From Candidatus Hodarchaeota archaeon (lineage in GTDB: Archaea; Asgardarchaeota; Heimdallarchaeia; Hodarchaeales; YT1-057): DNA of 23,047 bases. Below the pieces are notes generated by a model. The model had not been told where the DNA came from. It did not search any database and saw nothing but the letters and a program-made list of their open reading frames with translations. The position numbers and the translations under genes are program-made. The stretch lies in the NCBI GenBank assembly GCA_016839955.1, contig JAEOTI010000523.1, forward strand, positions 1 through 23,047. Reading direction: 5' to 3'. Shown one piece after another: positions 3,574 through 18,017 of the stretch; the stretch's first letter is position 1, and each line of letters starts with the position of its first letter.

Positions 3574-3603
3574 ATTATTGGTCAAAATTTGGAGATCTGG
3601 AAC

Positions 3604-4344
3604 ATGCCCGGTGTAGAGAAAAGAACTGAAGAGTGGAAACCCCTGCGGGAGTTACCAATCACATGGGTCACCCTATCAGAACTAAAACCACATGAACGCC
3701 TTAACAATGAAGAATTAAAAGGTTTTATTGAAAGCCTTACTTCCAGTGGAATATTTTGGCTTCCATTACTGATTTCAAAAAATGAAAAAATCATAATTGA
3801 TGGACATCATCGGTGGAAGGGCCTTTTAGAGTTGGGAGCAGAGAAAGCACCAGCTGTTATGGTTGATTATGCTGATCCTGAAATTGAATTAGGAATCTGG
3901 TTTCCTTTACTTTCTAAAGATAAAACTACATTTCTAGAAGCTTTACAAAAGGCTAGTATTACAACAAAAATAGTTAAAGATCGAAATGAAGCAATCAATG
4001 AAGTTCATTCTGGAAAAGCCTCTTTTGCTATTGTTGGAAAAGAAAATGAAGAAGCTGTGTTAGTTTATAATAAACCCGAAGCTTGCGATATGCTTGTGAA
4101 AATTGAAGGCGAATCAATAGTATATATTGATACGGAATCCGCAGCACTAGCTGAAGTAGACAACGAAGAAGCTAAATTTGCGATAATACGAAAACCTTTA
4201 TCTAAGGACTCAGTTCGAAGAACTTGCTCTAAGGGAGAAGTTTTTCCTGCAAAATCAACAAGACACATTCTTCCATTTACTTTTCAAAAAATAGATGTTA
4301 AAATTAATGAAATAATCCCGAACTTCTCTAACAAGGAGAAATGA
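3604..4344 (+). CDS. serK: Free L-serine kinase of the ParB/sulfiredoxin fold (SerK family)
   Basis: The protein resembles the archaeal SerK enzyme known from Thermococcus, which phosphorylates free L-serine to O-phosphoserine for cysteine synthesis. From memory of that protein, matching segments are LKPHE (residues 27-31, with E31 aligning to the catalytic glutamate), the FIESLTSSGIFWLPLL stretch, IDGHHRW (65-71), and the C-terminal KGEVFPAKSTRHILPF and KIDVK. Preservation of the C-terminal TRHILPF block argues for SerK rather than a chromosome-partitioning ParB. ATG 3604 is chosen because GGAG at 3591-3594 lies nine bases upstream; TTG 3589 would overlap that site. The next gene is a cysteine desulfurase, which supports a cysteine and sulfur role. 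Whether ADP or ATP is the phosphate donor cannot be judged from the sequence. Confidence 0.83.
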   Translation: MPGVEKRTEEWKPLRELPITWVTLSELKPHERLNNEELKGFIESLTSSGIFWLPLLISKNEKIIIDGHHRWKGLLELGAEKAPAVMVDYADPEIELGIWFPLLSKDKTTFLEALQKASITTKIVKDRNEAINEVHSGKASFAIVGKENEEAVLVYNKPEACDMLVKIEGESIVYIDTESAALAEVDNEEAKFAIIRKPLSKDSVRRTCSKGEVFPAKSTRHILPFTFQKIDVKINEIIPNFSNKEK

Positions 4345-6813: not shown

Positions 6814-7884
6814 ATGAAAAATGATTATTTTTCAAAATTGTCGGAACTATGTGAATTACCTGCTCCAACAGGAAAAGAAACTAAAGTTCTGCAATTTATA
6901 TCATCAGTTTTATCTAATTACATGGAAGTGTCAAGTGATCAAGTTGGAAATGTTGTTGGGGAACTTCCCGGACGCTCTAAAAAGAAACAAGTTGTAATAG
7001 TTGCCCATGCAGACGAGATTGGTTATGTAATTCGTTCGATTGATCCAAATGGTTTTCTTCACTTATCATTTAACACTGGTGCAACAGTTCCTGATACTCG
7101 TTTTCTTCCAGGAGAACGTCTCCGGGTCTTAACTGATACTGACAGAGAAATAATCGGAATAGTAGGGCTGACGAGTGGACATTTAGCTGGAAAAAAAGGC
7201 AAAAAAGAACTGCTTACTCTTCCTTCATTATATTTAGATGTTGGGGCAAACTCCACAAAAGAAATCCAGGAAGATTATGAAATACAAATTGGAAATCCTG
7301 CTGTTTTTGAAAGAAAAACCGAATTCTTGGGAAAGAATAATCACCTTGTAATGGGAAAGGCGATGGATGATCGTACAGGGATATTGGTTCTTTTAGAGAT
7401 AGCAAAACGGATGGCAGAATATGAAAATCATGAAAGACCAACTCTCAAATTTATTTTTACAATTCAAGAAGAAATAGGAGTTAAAGGGGCGCCCTCAAGT
7501 GCATTACAGTTACGAGATACAAAAGCTCAAACTCAAGTTATTGCTCTAGATGTTGGTCCTGTCGGAGATACTCCGGGGGCGAAAGATCTAGCTACTCCAA
7601 AATTAAACCAAGGTCCGATAATAGTTTTTAAAGACTCAGAAATGCATTATGATAGAAAAATTATCCACAATTTATTAGAAATCAGTGAGAAAAAAGAAAT
7701 TCCAACTCAAAGAAGCGTCTATGCTAATTATGGCTCAGATGCATTGGGTTTTCTTACAACTGGATTTCCAAGTGCTTTAGTTGCAGTTCCTTGTAGATAT
7801 ACTCATACGCCATTTGAAACGATTAGTATTCGAGATTTACAGGATGTAATTGAGTTAGTTTTTGGTTTTATAAAACAACAATGA
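6814..7884 (+). CDS. M42 family metallo-aminopeptidase (TET/glutamyl aminopeptidase-like)
   Basis: The protein is a dinuclear-metal aminopeptidase of 356 residues. The metal-binding and catalytic pattern of family M42 is visible: VAHADEIGYV (first His and Asp), GKAMDDRTG (bridging Asp), IQEEIGVKGA (catalytic and metal glutamates), ALDVGP (Asp) and CRYTHTPFE (final His). Family members form dodecameric tetrahedral particles in the cytoplasm and trim peptides from their N-terminus. ATG 6814 lies 3 bases after the subtilase stop, with GAGGAGG at 6795-6801 as ribosome site, so the two are co-translated. The pairing suggests a peptide-use pathway: extracellular cleavage by the subtilase, then intracellular trimming. 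A short T-tract at about 7950-7955 may end the transcript. Substrate preference (acidic, neutral or basic residues) cannot be told from sequence alone. Confidence 0.92.
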   Translation: MKNDYFSKLSELCELPAPTGKETKVLQFISSVLSNYMEVSSDQVGNVVGELPGRSKKKQVVIVAHADEIGYVIRSIDPNGFLHLSFNTGATVPDTRFLPGERLRVLTDTDREIIGIVGLTSGHLAGKKGKKELLTLPSLYLDVGANSTKEIQEDYEIQIGNPAVFERKTEFLGKNNHLVMGKAMDDRTGILVLLEIAKRMAEYENHERPTLKFIFTIQEEIGVKGAPSSALQLRDTKAQTQVIALDVGPVGDTPGAKDLATPKLNQGPIIVFKDSEMHYDRKIIHNLLEISEKKEIPTQRSVYANYGSDALGFLTTGFPSALVAVPCRYTHTPFETISIRDLQDVIELVFGFIKQQ

Positions 7885-7986: not shown

Positions 7987-8014
7987 GTGTTAATAATATA
8001 TCATGAATTAACAC
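7987..8014 (+). promoter_or_regulatory. Inverted repeat bracketing a TATA-like box
   Basis: GTGTTAAT (7987-7994) and ATTAACAC (8007-8014) are perfect eight-base inverted arms. The loop of 12 bases contains AATATATC, a TATA-like sequence. It lies about 55-80 bases before ATG 8069, so transcription would start near 8025 and leave a leader carrying the TGAGGA ribosome site. An operator overlapping the promoter is plausible, but no regulator is assigned. Confidence 0.35.
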
Positions 8015-8068: not shown

Positions 8069-8776
8069 ATGAGATCCTATATTAAACTCTTCGGCCCTAA
8101 AATTGATCAAGCCCTTACTGAATTGGAGAAATTAACAGAAGAACTATCACATATAGATGATGGTAGAACTATAGGCATAATGCAAGAAGAAAAAAAAGGA
8201 TTTCTTTCTAGATTATTGAAGGGTGATGAGGATAAAAGAGGCTTAATTGGCGAATATGACTATGAAATCATTTGGGCTGAGGAACCAACAGTAAATAAGT
8301 TATTAGAATTCATCAAGAAAATTGATGATATAATGGAGAGTATTGGAGCCCGATATAGCATAAATTCTGTTCCAGAGAAATTTGATGATATGAAAAAGGA
8401 ACAAGAGGACGATGTTGTTAGCTATATCAATTTTATTGGTCCATCTATCACTAAGGCTTTAGGTGCTGTTCATGAAGTTGTTCTCAATATGCCTCAGACT
8501 AAGGATCTTGAAGAAGTAATGGCTGGAGAAATTACAATCGGAGAATATGATTATGCCTTTGGATGGGGGTATTATCCTAGCGTAGACCAAATTCGAAAGA
8601 TTATTAGCGCCATTGATGAAGCCATAGGTCCAACTGGTGCTCTATACACAATTACTACTAAAAGTCGAAAAGAAACTCGGCCAATTACTTCAGAAGACAA
8701 ACGAAAAACTCGTCAAGTCGCAGCGAGACATAAATTCAAGAAAGACTATCAAGAAGTTGTCGGGCAGTTCCGATAG
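8069..8776 (+). CDS. Protein of unknown family made of two copies of one domain
   Basis: I do not recognise this 235-residue protein, but it has a clear internal duplication. Copy 1 (residues 3-100) and copy 2 (118-198) share the pattern SYI..(x)GP.I..AL near the start, IGEYDY...W...P.V in the middle, and an I..ID helix followed by GA.Y.I at the end. Copy 1 carries an extra charged insert (residues 41-58, KKGFLSRLLKGDEDK). The tail is basic (KRKTRQVAARHKFKK) and could contact nucleic acid or acidic partners. No signal peptide, transmembrane segment or cysteine is present. ATG 8069 follows TGAGGA with good spacing. It stands alone between M42 and the convergent phosphohexomutase gene, ten bases from the latter's end, with its own promoter upstream. 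Confidence 0.72.
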   Translation: MRSYIKLFGPKIDQALTELEKLTEELSHIDDGRTIGIMQEEKKGFLSRLLKGDEDKRGLIGEYDYEIIWAEEPTVNKLLEFIKKIDDIMESIGARYSINSVPEKFDDMKKEQEDDVVSYINFIGPSITKALGAVHEVVLNMPQTKDLEEVMAGEITIGEYDYAFGWGYYPSVDQIRKIISAIDEAIGPTGALYTITTKSRKETRPITSEDKRKTRQVAARHKFKKDYQEVVGQFR

Positions 8777-8786
8777 AGACAATTCA

Positions 8787-10157
8787 TTAATTCATTTGTT
8801 TCAGAAGACTCTCTAGAGAATTTATTATCTCCTCCTGTAATTCTTCTAAACGTTGTCTCGTTTTAGCTTGAAATCTTGTCTCAATGGCCGCTTCAGTATT
8901 TTTTGCTCTTACTAAGGCGAAAGCATCTCCAAAATCGAGTCTTAAACCATCAATGGTTGTAGATTTTCCTCCCAAATGTGCGATTTTCTTCTTCAATTCT
9001 TCAACACATTGATGTTTAATTGAGTCTGATACGACAATTTTTTGAGTTGGAGTTTCTTCCATTACAGGAAATTCCTGGCGTAACTTTGAAAGTGGTTTTT
9101 TCAATATTAAAGGAATTTCCAAAGCTTTGGTTAATGCGAAAAGCGCATCATCAAAGAAGTAATTTTCTGCAAAGTAATAATGCCCTGTTAACTCCCCTGC
9201 GAAGTGTGCCTTAGGATACAAGCGGATGAGCTCAGCCATTACATAAGAATGCCCAGACTTACAGAAAGCAATTTCTCCTCCCCGAGAAGAAATATATTCA
9301 TCTGCTCCAAGCCCAGTTCTGACCTCATGTAAAATTGTAGAACCAGGATGTTTCTGAAGTATTTGTTCTGCTAACCATGCAGTCAACATGTCATTTGGTA
9401 CCGGAACACCGTGATCATCAAACATACGTAATCGATCACCGTCTCCATCAATCGCAAAACCAATATTTGCCCCTGAATCGAGAATGCTTTCAGCAACAAC
9501 TTCTTCGACCTCTGAAAGAAAAACATCAGGTTCATGAGCAGGAAAGTTTCCATCAGGTATTTCGTTTAATATTTCAAAATTAAGATCCAAGCTTTGAAGG
9601 ATTTTTCTAACCGCTGGTCCACTTGCACCATTCGCACAATCAACAACAATTCGAAGGTTATTCTTAATTCCATTTTTTGAAATAACATGGTTGACATAAT
9701 CATTTACATATTGGACAGTTTTGCTAGAACCACTAGTTCTTTTCGGATCTCTTCGACTTTCATTTAGTAATCTGTCCCGAAGGTCCTTTATTCCTTCTTC
9801 CCAAGTCAGGCAAATAGCTTTCTCACGCATTAATTTTGCTCCGTTCCAATCTTTAGGGTTATGGGATGAAGTTATCATTATTGCCCCATCAATCTTCTCG
9901 TTACATACGTAGTAGTAACAAACGGGCGATGGAACCATCCCCAATCGATGAACATTAGCCCCTATAGATTCTAATCCCGAACAAGCTTTTTGTTCAAATT
10001 CGGGACCTGTTAGTCGTGCATCATAGGCAATAGCTATCTTAGCACCTTCAGGGAAGTCTAATCCAAATTCTTGAGCAATTTTATAGAAATCATTCGAATT
10101 AAAATCGTCTGGTACTTTTCCCCTAAGATCATAACGACGAAAAACAGATGATTGCAT
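8787..10157 (-). CDS. Phosphomannomutase/phosphoglucomutase family phosphohexomutase
   Basis: This alpha-D-phosphohexomutase (456 residues) moves phosphate between C1 and C6 of a hexose or hexosamine, supplying sugar-1-phosphates for nucleotide sugars and glycans. The N-terminus FRRYDLRG, the phosphoserine loop TSSHNP (residues 96-101, catalytic Ser98), the Mg loop DGDGDRL (237-243), the sugar-specificity loop GELTGH (321-326; common form GExSGH) and the phosphate-binding RAKNTEAAIETRFQAK near the C-terminus are all present. The exact substrate (mannose, glucose or glucosamine phosphate) cannot be assigned. ATG 10157 has an AGGA about ten bases upstream on the minus strand. It converges on the duplicated-domain gene with only ten bases between stop codons and is divergent from the aminotransferase gene. 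Confidence 0.9.
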   Translation of the reverse strand: MQSSVFRRYDLRGKVPDDFNSNDFYKIAQEFGLDFPEGAKIAIAYDARLTGPEFEQKACSGLESIGANVHRLGMVPSPVCYYYVCNEKIDGAIMITSSHNPKDWNGAKLMREKAICLTWEEGIKDLRDRLLNESRRDPKRTSGSSKTVQYVNDYVNHVISKNGIKNNLRIVVDCANGASGPAVRKILQSLDLNFEILNEIPDGNFPAHEPDVFLSEVEEVVAESILDSGANIGFAIDGDGDRLRMFDDHGVPVPNDMLTAWLAEQILQKHPGSTILHEVRTGLGADEYISSRGGEIAFCKSGHSYVMAELIRLYPKAHFAGELTGHYYFAENYFFDDALFALTKALEIPLILKKPLSKLRQEFPVMEETPTQKIVVSDSIKHQCVEELKKKIAHLGGKSTTIDGLRLDFGDAFALVRAKNTEAAIETRFQAKTRQRLEELQEEIINSLESLLKQMN

Positions 10158-13787: not shown

Positions 13788-14576
13788 TTAACCACCAAAG
13801 GTTTCTTCAAATTCCTTTTCAAGTTCCTTGAGTCTATTATCCTTTTCTTCAACTGTCTTTTCTAATTCTGCAACTTTTGTTTTGAGCCCTTCAGCTTCTG
13901 CAATAACAGCTTCTTTTTCTTTTTCTTTTTGTTCTAATTCATTTTCAGCAGAAGTTAGCTTTTCTTGGGCTTCTGTTGGACCTAAACTTGCTGCTTCTTC
14001 AAGTTTCTTTTCTAGCTCTTGGATTTTCGCATCTTTATCAGCAAGTTGAGATTTGAGTTCTGAAATTCTTCTCTCAAGTTCTTGAATTTTGGCATCCTTT
14101 TCCTCAATAGATTTACTCTTCTGTGTGACAAGAGGTTCTAATTCGCTAATTTTACTACCTTTCACGGAAAGCTGGCCTTCAAGCTCCTTAATTTTACTTT
14201 CCTTTTCTGCGATTTGAGGTTCAAATTCAGTTAGTTTAGTCTGTTTTTCAGTTAACTGTGATTCTAAATCTTGAATTTTGGTATCTTTTTCTGAAACTGT
14301 TGCCCTCAACTTTTTTGTTTTTTCTAATTCAGCTTTTAATTCTTCTTCTGCAGCACCAAGTGCTTCTTGATATTCACTAGAGTGTTTTTTCAGTCTTTCT
14401 AGCTCTTCATGTAGGTTAGATAGATCTGCTTCCATTTGTTCGATTTCTGAAAGTGTTGGACGTTTCTTTGGTGGTGCAACATCTGAAACGAGGCCCTCGC
14501 TATCAACTGGACCTGCTGAGCAGTTAGGACAAGGCAATCTTACATAATATGATCCGCATTTCTCACAAATAGGCAT
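13788..14576 (-). CDS. Zinc-ribbon protein with long coiled coil built from 14-residue repeats
   Basis: The N-terminus is a zinc ribbon with CEKC (C4, C7) and CPNC (C16, C19). After a proline-rich linker (APPKKRP), residues about 45-260 form a long coiled coil rich in Glu, Lys and Leu. Residues 97-194 show a regular 14-residue period (units begin KDTKIQDLE, KQTKLTEFE, KESKIKELE, KGSKISELE, KDAKIQELE), i.e. two heptads per unit. There is no signal peptide or membrane helix, so a cytoplasmic scaffold is likely, but no specific function can be named. ATG 14576 has GGAG nine bases upstream (14586-14589) and a TATA-like TTTAAAAATAT at 14601-14591, which is so near that a leaderless transcript is also possible. 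It converges with the B-box gene across 27 bases. Confidence 0.8.
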   Translation of the reverse strand: MPICEKCGSYYVRLPCPNCSAGPVDSEGLVSDVAPPKKRPTLSEIEQMEADLSNLHEELERLKKHSSEYQEALGAAEEELKAELEKTKKLRATVSEKDTKIQDLESQLTEKQTKLTEFEPQIAEKESKIKELEGQLSVKGSKISELEPLVTQKSKSIEEKDAKIQELERRISELKSQLADKDAKIQELEKKLEEAASLGPTEAQEKLTSAENELEQKEKEKEAVIAEAEGLKTKVAELEKTVEEKDNRLKELEKEFEETFGG

Positions 14577-17008: not shown

Positions 17009-17031
17009 AGGTTTTTTATTTTCAAAAACCT
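17009..17031. terminator. Stem-loop between the convergent purA and M50 protease genes
   Basis: AGGTTTTT (17009-17016) and AAAAACCT (17024-17031) form a perfect eight-base stem with a seven-base loop. It begins right after the purA stop codon and includes the last codons and stop of the minus-strand gene. Short T runs on both strands make a bidirectional terminator plausible, though archaeal termination often needs only T tracts. Confidence 0.45.
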
Positions 17032-18017
17032 AAGTAATAAGTCGATATAGTAATAAAGATTGCCATTGCTATTAAACCTCCCCAAATTGACCCATTCCAT
17101 TGTAGGATTTTCTTTCCATCGAGATTCCAAAATGGAAGAAGGTTAAATATTGCCAAAATACCGTTTAATACAGCAATAATTCTAAATGTAATGGCAATGA
17201 TAGAAGAACCAAAGGGGACAGAAAGAAGAAGGAAGAGCGAACCAAAAAAAATATTAACACTGGGTCCAGCTGCAGAAATCTTTCCGTTTGTGCGATTATC
17301 TACAAAACCTTGGATAAGGACAAAACCAGGAGCCGCAATTGCTGGTAAACCTACTGCTAATGCAAAGAAAATCATGACTACTGTAAGATACAAACCTTGT
17401 CGCCATAAAACAAAACGAGCTGACATTCCTGCACCTTTTGCAAATTGGCGATGTGCTATTTCATGACAAACAAATGCAGTAAAGGATGCTAGTAGTGCCC
17501 CACTTATTGCAAGAAGTAGATTCAACCAGGTAAAACCTTCAACAAGAAGAACTCTATTGTAGAATATTCCAAATACAAATAATGCTATAAGCGCCATACC
17601 TAGAAGAAGATCCCGAAATTCACTTCCTAAAGTAACAACGTCCATGCCTGGGGGCGGAATAAAACCATCTCTTGGTCGAGCTCTTTGGGTGTATAATGTA
17701 CTTGGATCCCCTCTTATATCAAAAACGATTGTCCCTGAGTTTGATCTAGTTGCATAAGGTTTCCACATGCCTGGAGTGCCACGCATTTGGTCCATTACTT
17801 TACAATCATGATTTTCAGGCAATCTATGGCGAGAACAGAAGGTTTTTTTACAATAATGACATTGAAAAGGCATTAATTCTTGTTTCCCACAAATAAAACA
17901 TCCAGAAGATTTACTTTGTGTGGTAGAAGGAATTTTATTCCCACATCCACCACAGAAGTTAGTATTTGCAGGAATTTTTTCACCACAATAAGGACAAAAT
18001 CTCATTTTTTTAGCCAC
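17022..18017 (-). CDS. Membrane M50 metalloprotease with N-terminal zinc ribbon and AN1 zinc finger
   Basis: Three modules are visible in 331 residues. A zinc ribbon comes first (CPYC 8-11, CGGC 22-25), then an AN1 finger whose eight ligands are all present (C40, C43, C53, C56, C61, H64, H70, C72, with HRLPENHDC), then a membrane metalloprotease of the S2P/M50 family with HEIAH at 185-189 inside a helix and a NLLPFWNLDG motif late in the protein as the third metal ligand. About six hydrophobic helices follow residue 138. M50 enzymes cut proteins inside or beside the membrane; the zinc fingers probably face the cytoplasm and could recruit substrates. GTG 18017 is the start, 11 bases after the nadA stop, so both genes are likely co-transcribed; ATG 18005 is an alternative. 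Confidence 0.9.
   Translation of the reverse strand: MAKKMRFCPYCGEKIPANTNFCGGCGNKIPSTTQSKSSGCFICGKQELMPFQCHYCKKTFCSRHRLPENHDCKVMDQMRGTPGMWKPYATRSNSGTIVFDIRGDPSTLYTQRARPRDGFIPPPGMDVVTLGSEFRDLLLGMALIALFVFGIFYNRVLLVEGFTWLNLLLAISGALLASFTAFVCHEIAHRQFAKGAGMSARFVLWRQGLYLTVVMIFFALAVGLPAIAAPGFVLIQGFVDNRTNGKISAAGPSVNIFFGSLFLLLSVPFGSSIIAITFRIIAVLNGILAIFNLLPFWNLDGKKILQWNGSIWGGLIAMAIFITISTYYLGF

Follow-up and report, generated by a model that had tools for sequence, protein, structure and literature searches.

The window, that is, the whole 23,047-nucleotide stretch of DNA analysed here, which probably stems from an Asgard archaeon, carries on its plus strand an open reading frame for a protein of 235 amino acids (ATG start, stop codon included in the coordinates), in which one small domain occurs twice, followed by a basic tail (Table 1). 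An earlier note, made from the sequence alone, had placed an unrecognised protein at 8075-8662, corresponding to residues 3-198 of this frame, and had described it as two copies of one domain. Alignment of the first half of the window protein (P0001; residues 1-112) with the second (residues 113-235) bears out this description, with a Smith-Waterman score of 101 against a mean of 27.7 ± 4.8 for shuffled sequences, none of 2000 shuffles scoring as high, and with 27 of 98 positions identical in BLASTP (18 gap columns, E 5e-12). The halves of the three closest relatives resemble each other at scores of 126, 125 and 134 (0/2000 shuffles as high in each case), and a profile of 15 N-terminal halves (N halves) matches a profile of 15 C-terminal halves (C halves) with a probability of 99.7% and an E of 2e-25. 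These comparisons show, at the level of the sequence, the doubling of one domain in this protein. One relative, P0003 (named as partial), has a longer N-terminus than the window protein.

Table 1. Features of the doubled-domain gene and its upstream region, in window coordinates.
Feature	Position	Strand	Remarks
Whole gene	8069..8776	+	235 amino acids; P0002 and P0004 align full-length from residue 1
Copy 1 of the domain	8075..8371	+	residues 3-101; half-against-half alignment
Variable charged loop, copy 1	8153..8248	+	residues 29-60; predicted local distance difference test (pLDDT) <50 at 30-36 and 38-60
Motif of copy 1, IGEYDYEIIW	8246..8275	+	residues 60-69; D64 and W69 conserved
Copy 2 of the domain	8414..8665	+	residues 116-199; half-against-half alignment, profiles, complete plait in the model
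Motif of copy 2, IGEYDYAFGW	8537..8566	+	residues 157-166; G158, D161 and W166 in 28/28 double-domain proteins each
Basic C-terminal tail	8666..8773	+	residues 200-235; predicted helix 208-220, model confidence low
Inverted repeat GTGTTAAT-N12-ATTAACAC, A/T-rich centre	7987..8014	.	upstream of the gene; not above chance

Both halves are predicted by AlphaFold to form ferredoxin-like plaits, a common fold, and each half matches solved plaits in structural comparison. In copy 2 the model contains strands at residues 116-123, 150-155, 162-166 and 192-199 and helices at 127-140 and 172-189, which is the complete beta-alpha-beta-beta-alpha-beta order. Copy 1 (strands 2-8, 65-69 and 95-101, helices 12-27 and 75-92) is modelled without a confident second strand, whose place would be the disordered loop. 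No difference in fold between the halves, which had been set beforehand as the refuting condition for the two-copy claim, is seen in the models as far as they reach. The loop had been described as an 18-residue insert in copy 1. The difference itself is real: G-P and G-x-Y-D lie 52 residues apart in copy 1, as against 34 (a count by eye) in copy 2. Measured by pattern, however, the loop has 31-51 residues among 25 N halves, 28-33 among 26 C halves and 34-88 (median 78) among 32 single-domain relatives, so that what had been taken for an insert is a loop of variable length in this family, longer in most of the single-domain proteins.

A search with the window protein alone retrieved three relatives, two of which are named as Hodarchaeales or Hodarchaeota; the closest named relatives (Hodarchaeota or Hodarchaeales) share 53% identity with it. 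A profile of four sequences extended this to 15 double-domain proteins (the four included), the fragment P0005 and 32 single-domain proteins of about 130 residues, and a profile of the domain had 339 matches with E values of 10 or below, the best 120 of which were drawn upon for the collected set. With proteins of 190 residues or more counted as doubles and those under 170 as singles, the collected relatives comprise at least 28 doubles and at least 127 singles. Among the matches listed, organism names are attached to 10 of the 28 doubles, all of them Asgard (Hodarchaeota or Hodarchaeales, Heimdallarchaeaceae, Heimdallarchaeota and Promethearchaeota; the lineages of Hodarchaeales and Heimdallarchaeaceae are those given by NCBI), and to three of the 127 singles (Bathyarchaeia, Bathyarchaeota, Thermoproteota); the division into Asgard doubles and singles of other archaea thus rests on few rows. 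The two singles P0078 and P0113 both have a longest contig of 83698 bases, a hint that two copies may lie in one genome, perhaps close together. Relatives were absent from the viral contigs searched, from phages searched with P0001 and P0113, and from plasmids searched with P0017 only. Two scans of a genome collection yielded 19 and 27 pattern matches and no relative by tblastn, the patterns being narrow, so that absence is not implied.

In a tree of 84 domains, comprising 32 of the 127 singles (30 random and eight chosen, minus overlaps and trimming losses) and 52 of the 56 halves (P0014_C, P0050_N, P0053_N and P0056_C fell to the trimming rule), one branch (98/86) sets the 26 C halves apart and another (97/85) the 32 singles, and the N halves group together except for P0014_N, which has a very long branch. 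When five long-branch rows are removed, all 23 N halves (98/86), all 25 C halves (99/93) and all 31 singles (88/89) separate. These trees are unrooted, with few columns and long branches; the separation of N halves, C halves and singles in them indicates that most likely a single duplication took place before the double-domain proteins diverged.

The domain has no convincing counterpart in the family libraries tried, in agreement with its earlier description as unrecognised. Searches of Pfam (15 of the 28 doubles, P0005 and all 127 singles), NCBIfam (the window protein and 32 of the 127 singles), PHROGs and PADLOC (eight proteins) and the sequences of the PDB gave no convincing match for the members scanned. 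The weak library matches (best E 0.0019 to 0.0092, each confined to one member or a few) vary between members, so that no family is named for the domain. Candidates rejected on these grounds are DUF1877 (E 0.088, 1/16) and MgtE (E 0.037), both found with the window protein and not carried by the family, DUF883 (E 0.0031, only 1/16 proteins of the double set), PG_1098_N (best E 0.0028, only 4/127 singles), a sulphotransferase family (E 0.0024, only 1/127 singles), DUF6169 (best E 0.04, only 6/127 singles) and a metallo-beta-lactamase model (best E 0.0092, only 2/32 singles). The PDB chain 6ek7_A, matched at E 0.0076 with a single sequence, did not return with profiles, and three profiles found no solved relative by sequence in the PDB (best rows E 0.036 or worse). 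PHROGs gave a best E of 0.0019, on one of the eight proteins, and PADLOC no match to any of the eight. Named members of the family are annotated as hypothetical. No account of the family was recognised in literature listings that give the starts of abstracts, four sequence motifs looked up as literature text found no match, and passages of PMC7531240 do not bear on this domain family. The suggestion that the protein is a candidate for an undescribed domain can be kept in so far as sequence searches show the domain to be absent from the libraries tried, but the protein does not stand alone, since it belongs to a doubled branch of an archaeal family with many singles.

Conservation was counted over the 28 doubles and 127 singles, excluding the fragment P0005. 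G9-P10/G124-P125, W69/W166, P73/P170, D86/D183 and Y96/Y193 are present in both halves of 28/28 doubles. The residues kept in both copies are Gly-Pro after strand 1, the Asp of the G-x-Y/F-D motif where strand 3 begins and the Trp where it ends, the Pro that precedes helix 2 and an Asp within that helix, and Tyr and Thr on strand 4. The Asp of the motif is kept in 26/28 doubles in copy 1 (D64) and in all 28 in copy 2 (D161), and residue 6 is Lys or Arg in 28/28. In the singles G9, P10, D81, F82, E85, W86, P90 and Y113 occur in 127/127 and K6 in 124/127; by alternation along the predicted strands, Lys6, Asp81 and Glu85 would lie on the open side of the sheet. The singles further have a pair of cysteines (C30 in 122/127, C66 in 120/127), the second preceded by Arg in 126/127, which, judging from the alignments, is a mark of the singles and possibly forms a metal, redox or disulfide site; any Cys is found in 12/28 doubles, and the window protein has none.

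Because conservation is symmetric in the two copies and a plait is predicted for each, we tentatively favour, as an explanation somewhat short of probable, that the protein is an intramolecular pseudo-dimer whose unit is a small plait domain with a ligand-binding role. Through tandem duplication of one plait, a single chain would form a two-domain unit, and the singles would probably form an equivalent unit as homodimers. The polar residues, namely Lys or Arg on strand 1 of copy 1, Asp on strand 3 and the strand-3 Glu of the singles, would point from the open sheet face into a pocket enclosed by the two stacked plaits. A small molecule might be bound there, as in Lrp/AsnC ligand domains, making the protein a sensor or carrier, and the basic tail could pass the signal to, or anchor the protein on, a partner or nucleic acid. 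The same residues could also belong to a structural or adaptor protein, in which they stabilise the plait and the tandem offers a protein-binding surface without a small ligand. A role in folding is plausible for Gly-Pro, Trp, Pro and Tyr, and no ligand family is significantly related, but the charged strand residues (Asp in both halves; in the singles Asp and Glu in 127/127 and Lys in 124/127) match the hydrophobic ones in conservation, which argues against a pure folding role, since such a role seldom needs them, and leaves the adaptor explanation unlikely.

Several observations weigh against the ligand-binding pseudo-dimer. In copy 2 of the window protein the counterpart of the strand-1 Lys is Asn (N121), and neither the Cys pair nor the strand-3 Glu of the singles is retained in this protein. 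The profile links to ligand-binding families all fall short of significance as well: in superfamily tests with small alignments from plasmid genes and Escherichia coli lrp, each with 60 shuffled-column controls, the best probability was 50%, for Dabb with the C halves (38 columns, 8% identity), and Lrp/AsnC reached 3.4% at best and GYD under 2%. For the C halves, none of the 60 shuffles scored as high as GYD, Lrp/AsnC or Dabb (PII 21/60, HMA 1/60), but the N halves were weaker (GYD 3, Lrp/AsnC 2, Dabb 1, PII 39 and HMA 2 of 60). The pooled profile gave GYD 0, Lrp/AsnC 1, Dabb 1, PII 33 and HMA 1 of 60. The excess over shuffles may come from the common fold alone, as HMA is a plait without a ligand role; since HMA scores nearly as well, the profiles fit the dimeric alpha+beta barrel group without amounting to membership. 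As a yardstick, GYD against Lrp/AsnC itself reached only 56% with the same small alignments. Finally, the matches of the whole protein to tandem plaits have a root-mean-square deviation (rmsd) of about 15 Å, so that the models lend no support to a barrel closed by the two halves.

The same structural matches bear on an enzymatic alternative, in which the protein would be an enzyme of the dimeric alpha+beta barrel type, to which ABM monooxygenases, Dabb enzymes and coproheme decarboxylase belong. Both halves would then build a catalytic pocket, surrounded by the conserved Asp, Tyr and Trp. In the Foldseek PDB list of the first model, ranks 1, 2 and 5-10 go to coproheme decarboxylases (best E 6e-4) and ranks 11 and 13 to chlorite dismutase-like proteins, the matches to both spanning 225-262 alignment columns; among the profiles compared with the C halves, that of Dabb does best. 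However, the template modelling (TM) score of the decarboxylase-type matches is only about 0.2 at the rmsd given above, their E falls to 0.025 and worse in the better, second model, no Pfam match to such a family occurs among the members scanned and there is no conserved His, so that we give this alternative a low likelihood.

The basic tail (residues 200-235), which had been pointed out before, is real, with a computed isoelectric point (pI) of 10.7, and is partly kept among the four closest proteins. Together with the plait fold and structural rows found with the models for eIF4E and the C-terminal part of eIF2-alpha, it is consistent with a nucleic-acid binder, whose plaits would be used as in RRM domains with the help of the tail; RNA metabolism or translation would be examples of its field of action. 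Such a role appears unlikely, since the whole protein is acidic (computed pI 5.2), the C-terminal ends vary among the 28 doubles and are short in some, and the eIF4E profile comparison is at shuffle level for four of five profiles. In this comparison, made with three eIF4E sequences and with all probabilities under 1%, shuffles scored as high in 17/30 cases for N halves, 27/30 for C halves, 10/30 for the pooled profile and 12/30 for whole doubles; against the profile of the singles 1/30 did so, on a 9-column match. Kinship to eIF4E is not supported by sequence profile, and the match is a structural one, tied in Z with unrelated plaits. It is very improbable that the Asgard doubled plait is a distant archaeal relative of the ancestral fold of eIF4E, binding a nucleotide or RNA end; in this reading the strands and helices of the C half would follow one another as in the eIF4E core, and the invariant Trp that ends strand 3 would stand in for the Trp that contacts the cap. 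The eIF4E fold is an eight-stranded cup with two cap-stacking Trp, and W166 of human eIF4E touches the methyl group of the cap.

The gene is preceded on the same strand by a gene for an M42 aminopeptidase (6814-7884) and followed by a convergent phosphohexomutase gene on the minus strand (8787-10157); no second gene copy of the domain is encoded within the window. A TATA-like promoter with an inverted repeat had been proposed upstream, a claim that is weak. The repeat is present, and a search of the window that allowed up to three mismatches finds it a single time, but a perfect arm of eight or more bases is found in 109/300 Markov sequences of 184 bases and the same composition, so that it needs no explanation and was rejected as an operator-like element. 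A promoter scan, of a bacterial type unsuited to archaea, stayed at shuffle level. Elsewhere in the window, the product of 3589-4344 (+) has a ParB N-terminal domain just above the cut-off and, after it, a match to the SerK C-terminal domain that stays below its own cut-off, and is perhaps, by these matches, a free-serine kinase of the SerK kind. The frame at 17022-18017 (-) encodes a zinc ribbon and an AN1-like zinc finger, then a match below the cut-off to an M50 membrane protease, and that at 13788-14576 (-) a protein of 262 residues with two N-terminal CxxC pairs and a long region that weakly matches many coiled-coil families. A frame for 116 residues with several cysteines (2526-2876, +), without a Pfam match at E 0.001, is directly followed by a gene for an ABC-transporter ATPase.

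The domain is well conserved, is found in at least 155 sequence clusters, mostly metagenomic, and is absent from the family libraries tried; on the Asgard side, seemingly one old duplication joined two domains in one chain. The family includes lineages thought to stand near the origin of eukaryotes. Should the conserved residues mark a ligand site, a crystal structure or a ligand screen of one single-domain protein would assign the function family-wide.

Among known systems, coproheme decarboxylases and chlorite dismutase-like proteins likewise have two plaits in one chain. They differ from the window protein by the large rmsd of about 15 Å and an identity of 15% or less in most rows; His is the usual heme ligand of coproheme decarboxylases, and no His is found among the conserved columns of the family described here. 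Unlike Lrp/AsnC proteins, the doubles and singles scanned have no detectable helix-turn-helix, and the Lrp/AsnC (RAM) hidden Markov model (HMM) found no match in the Pfam and NCBIfam scans (in Pfam 15/28 doubles, P0005 and 127 singles). The GYD HMM (PF08734) does not appear among the matches of the window protein even with E values as high as 10, nor did it match among the same Pfam-scanned proteins, and seven GYD sequences lack a Trp at the position where the family described here has it. With the C halves, the GYD profile scores 16.9, above 60/60 shuffles, at a probability of 1.5% in a weak alignment; with the N halves 3/60 shuffles are as high (probability 0.5%), and in the reverse direction the probability is at most 5%. 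For GYD, Lrp/AsnC and Dabb domains alike, a link is no more than suggested. The earlier note knew of no family with an IGEYDY motif; G-x-Y/F-D is placed like a similar motif of the GYD and Lrp/AsnC ligand domains, a likeness of position that falls short of kinship. GYD proteins resemble the singles in being small single-domain proteins with G-x-Y-D, and the weak profile alignment puts the two motifs in register.
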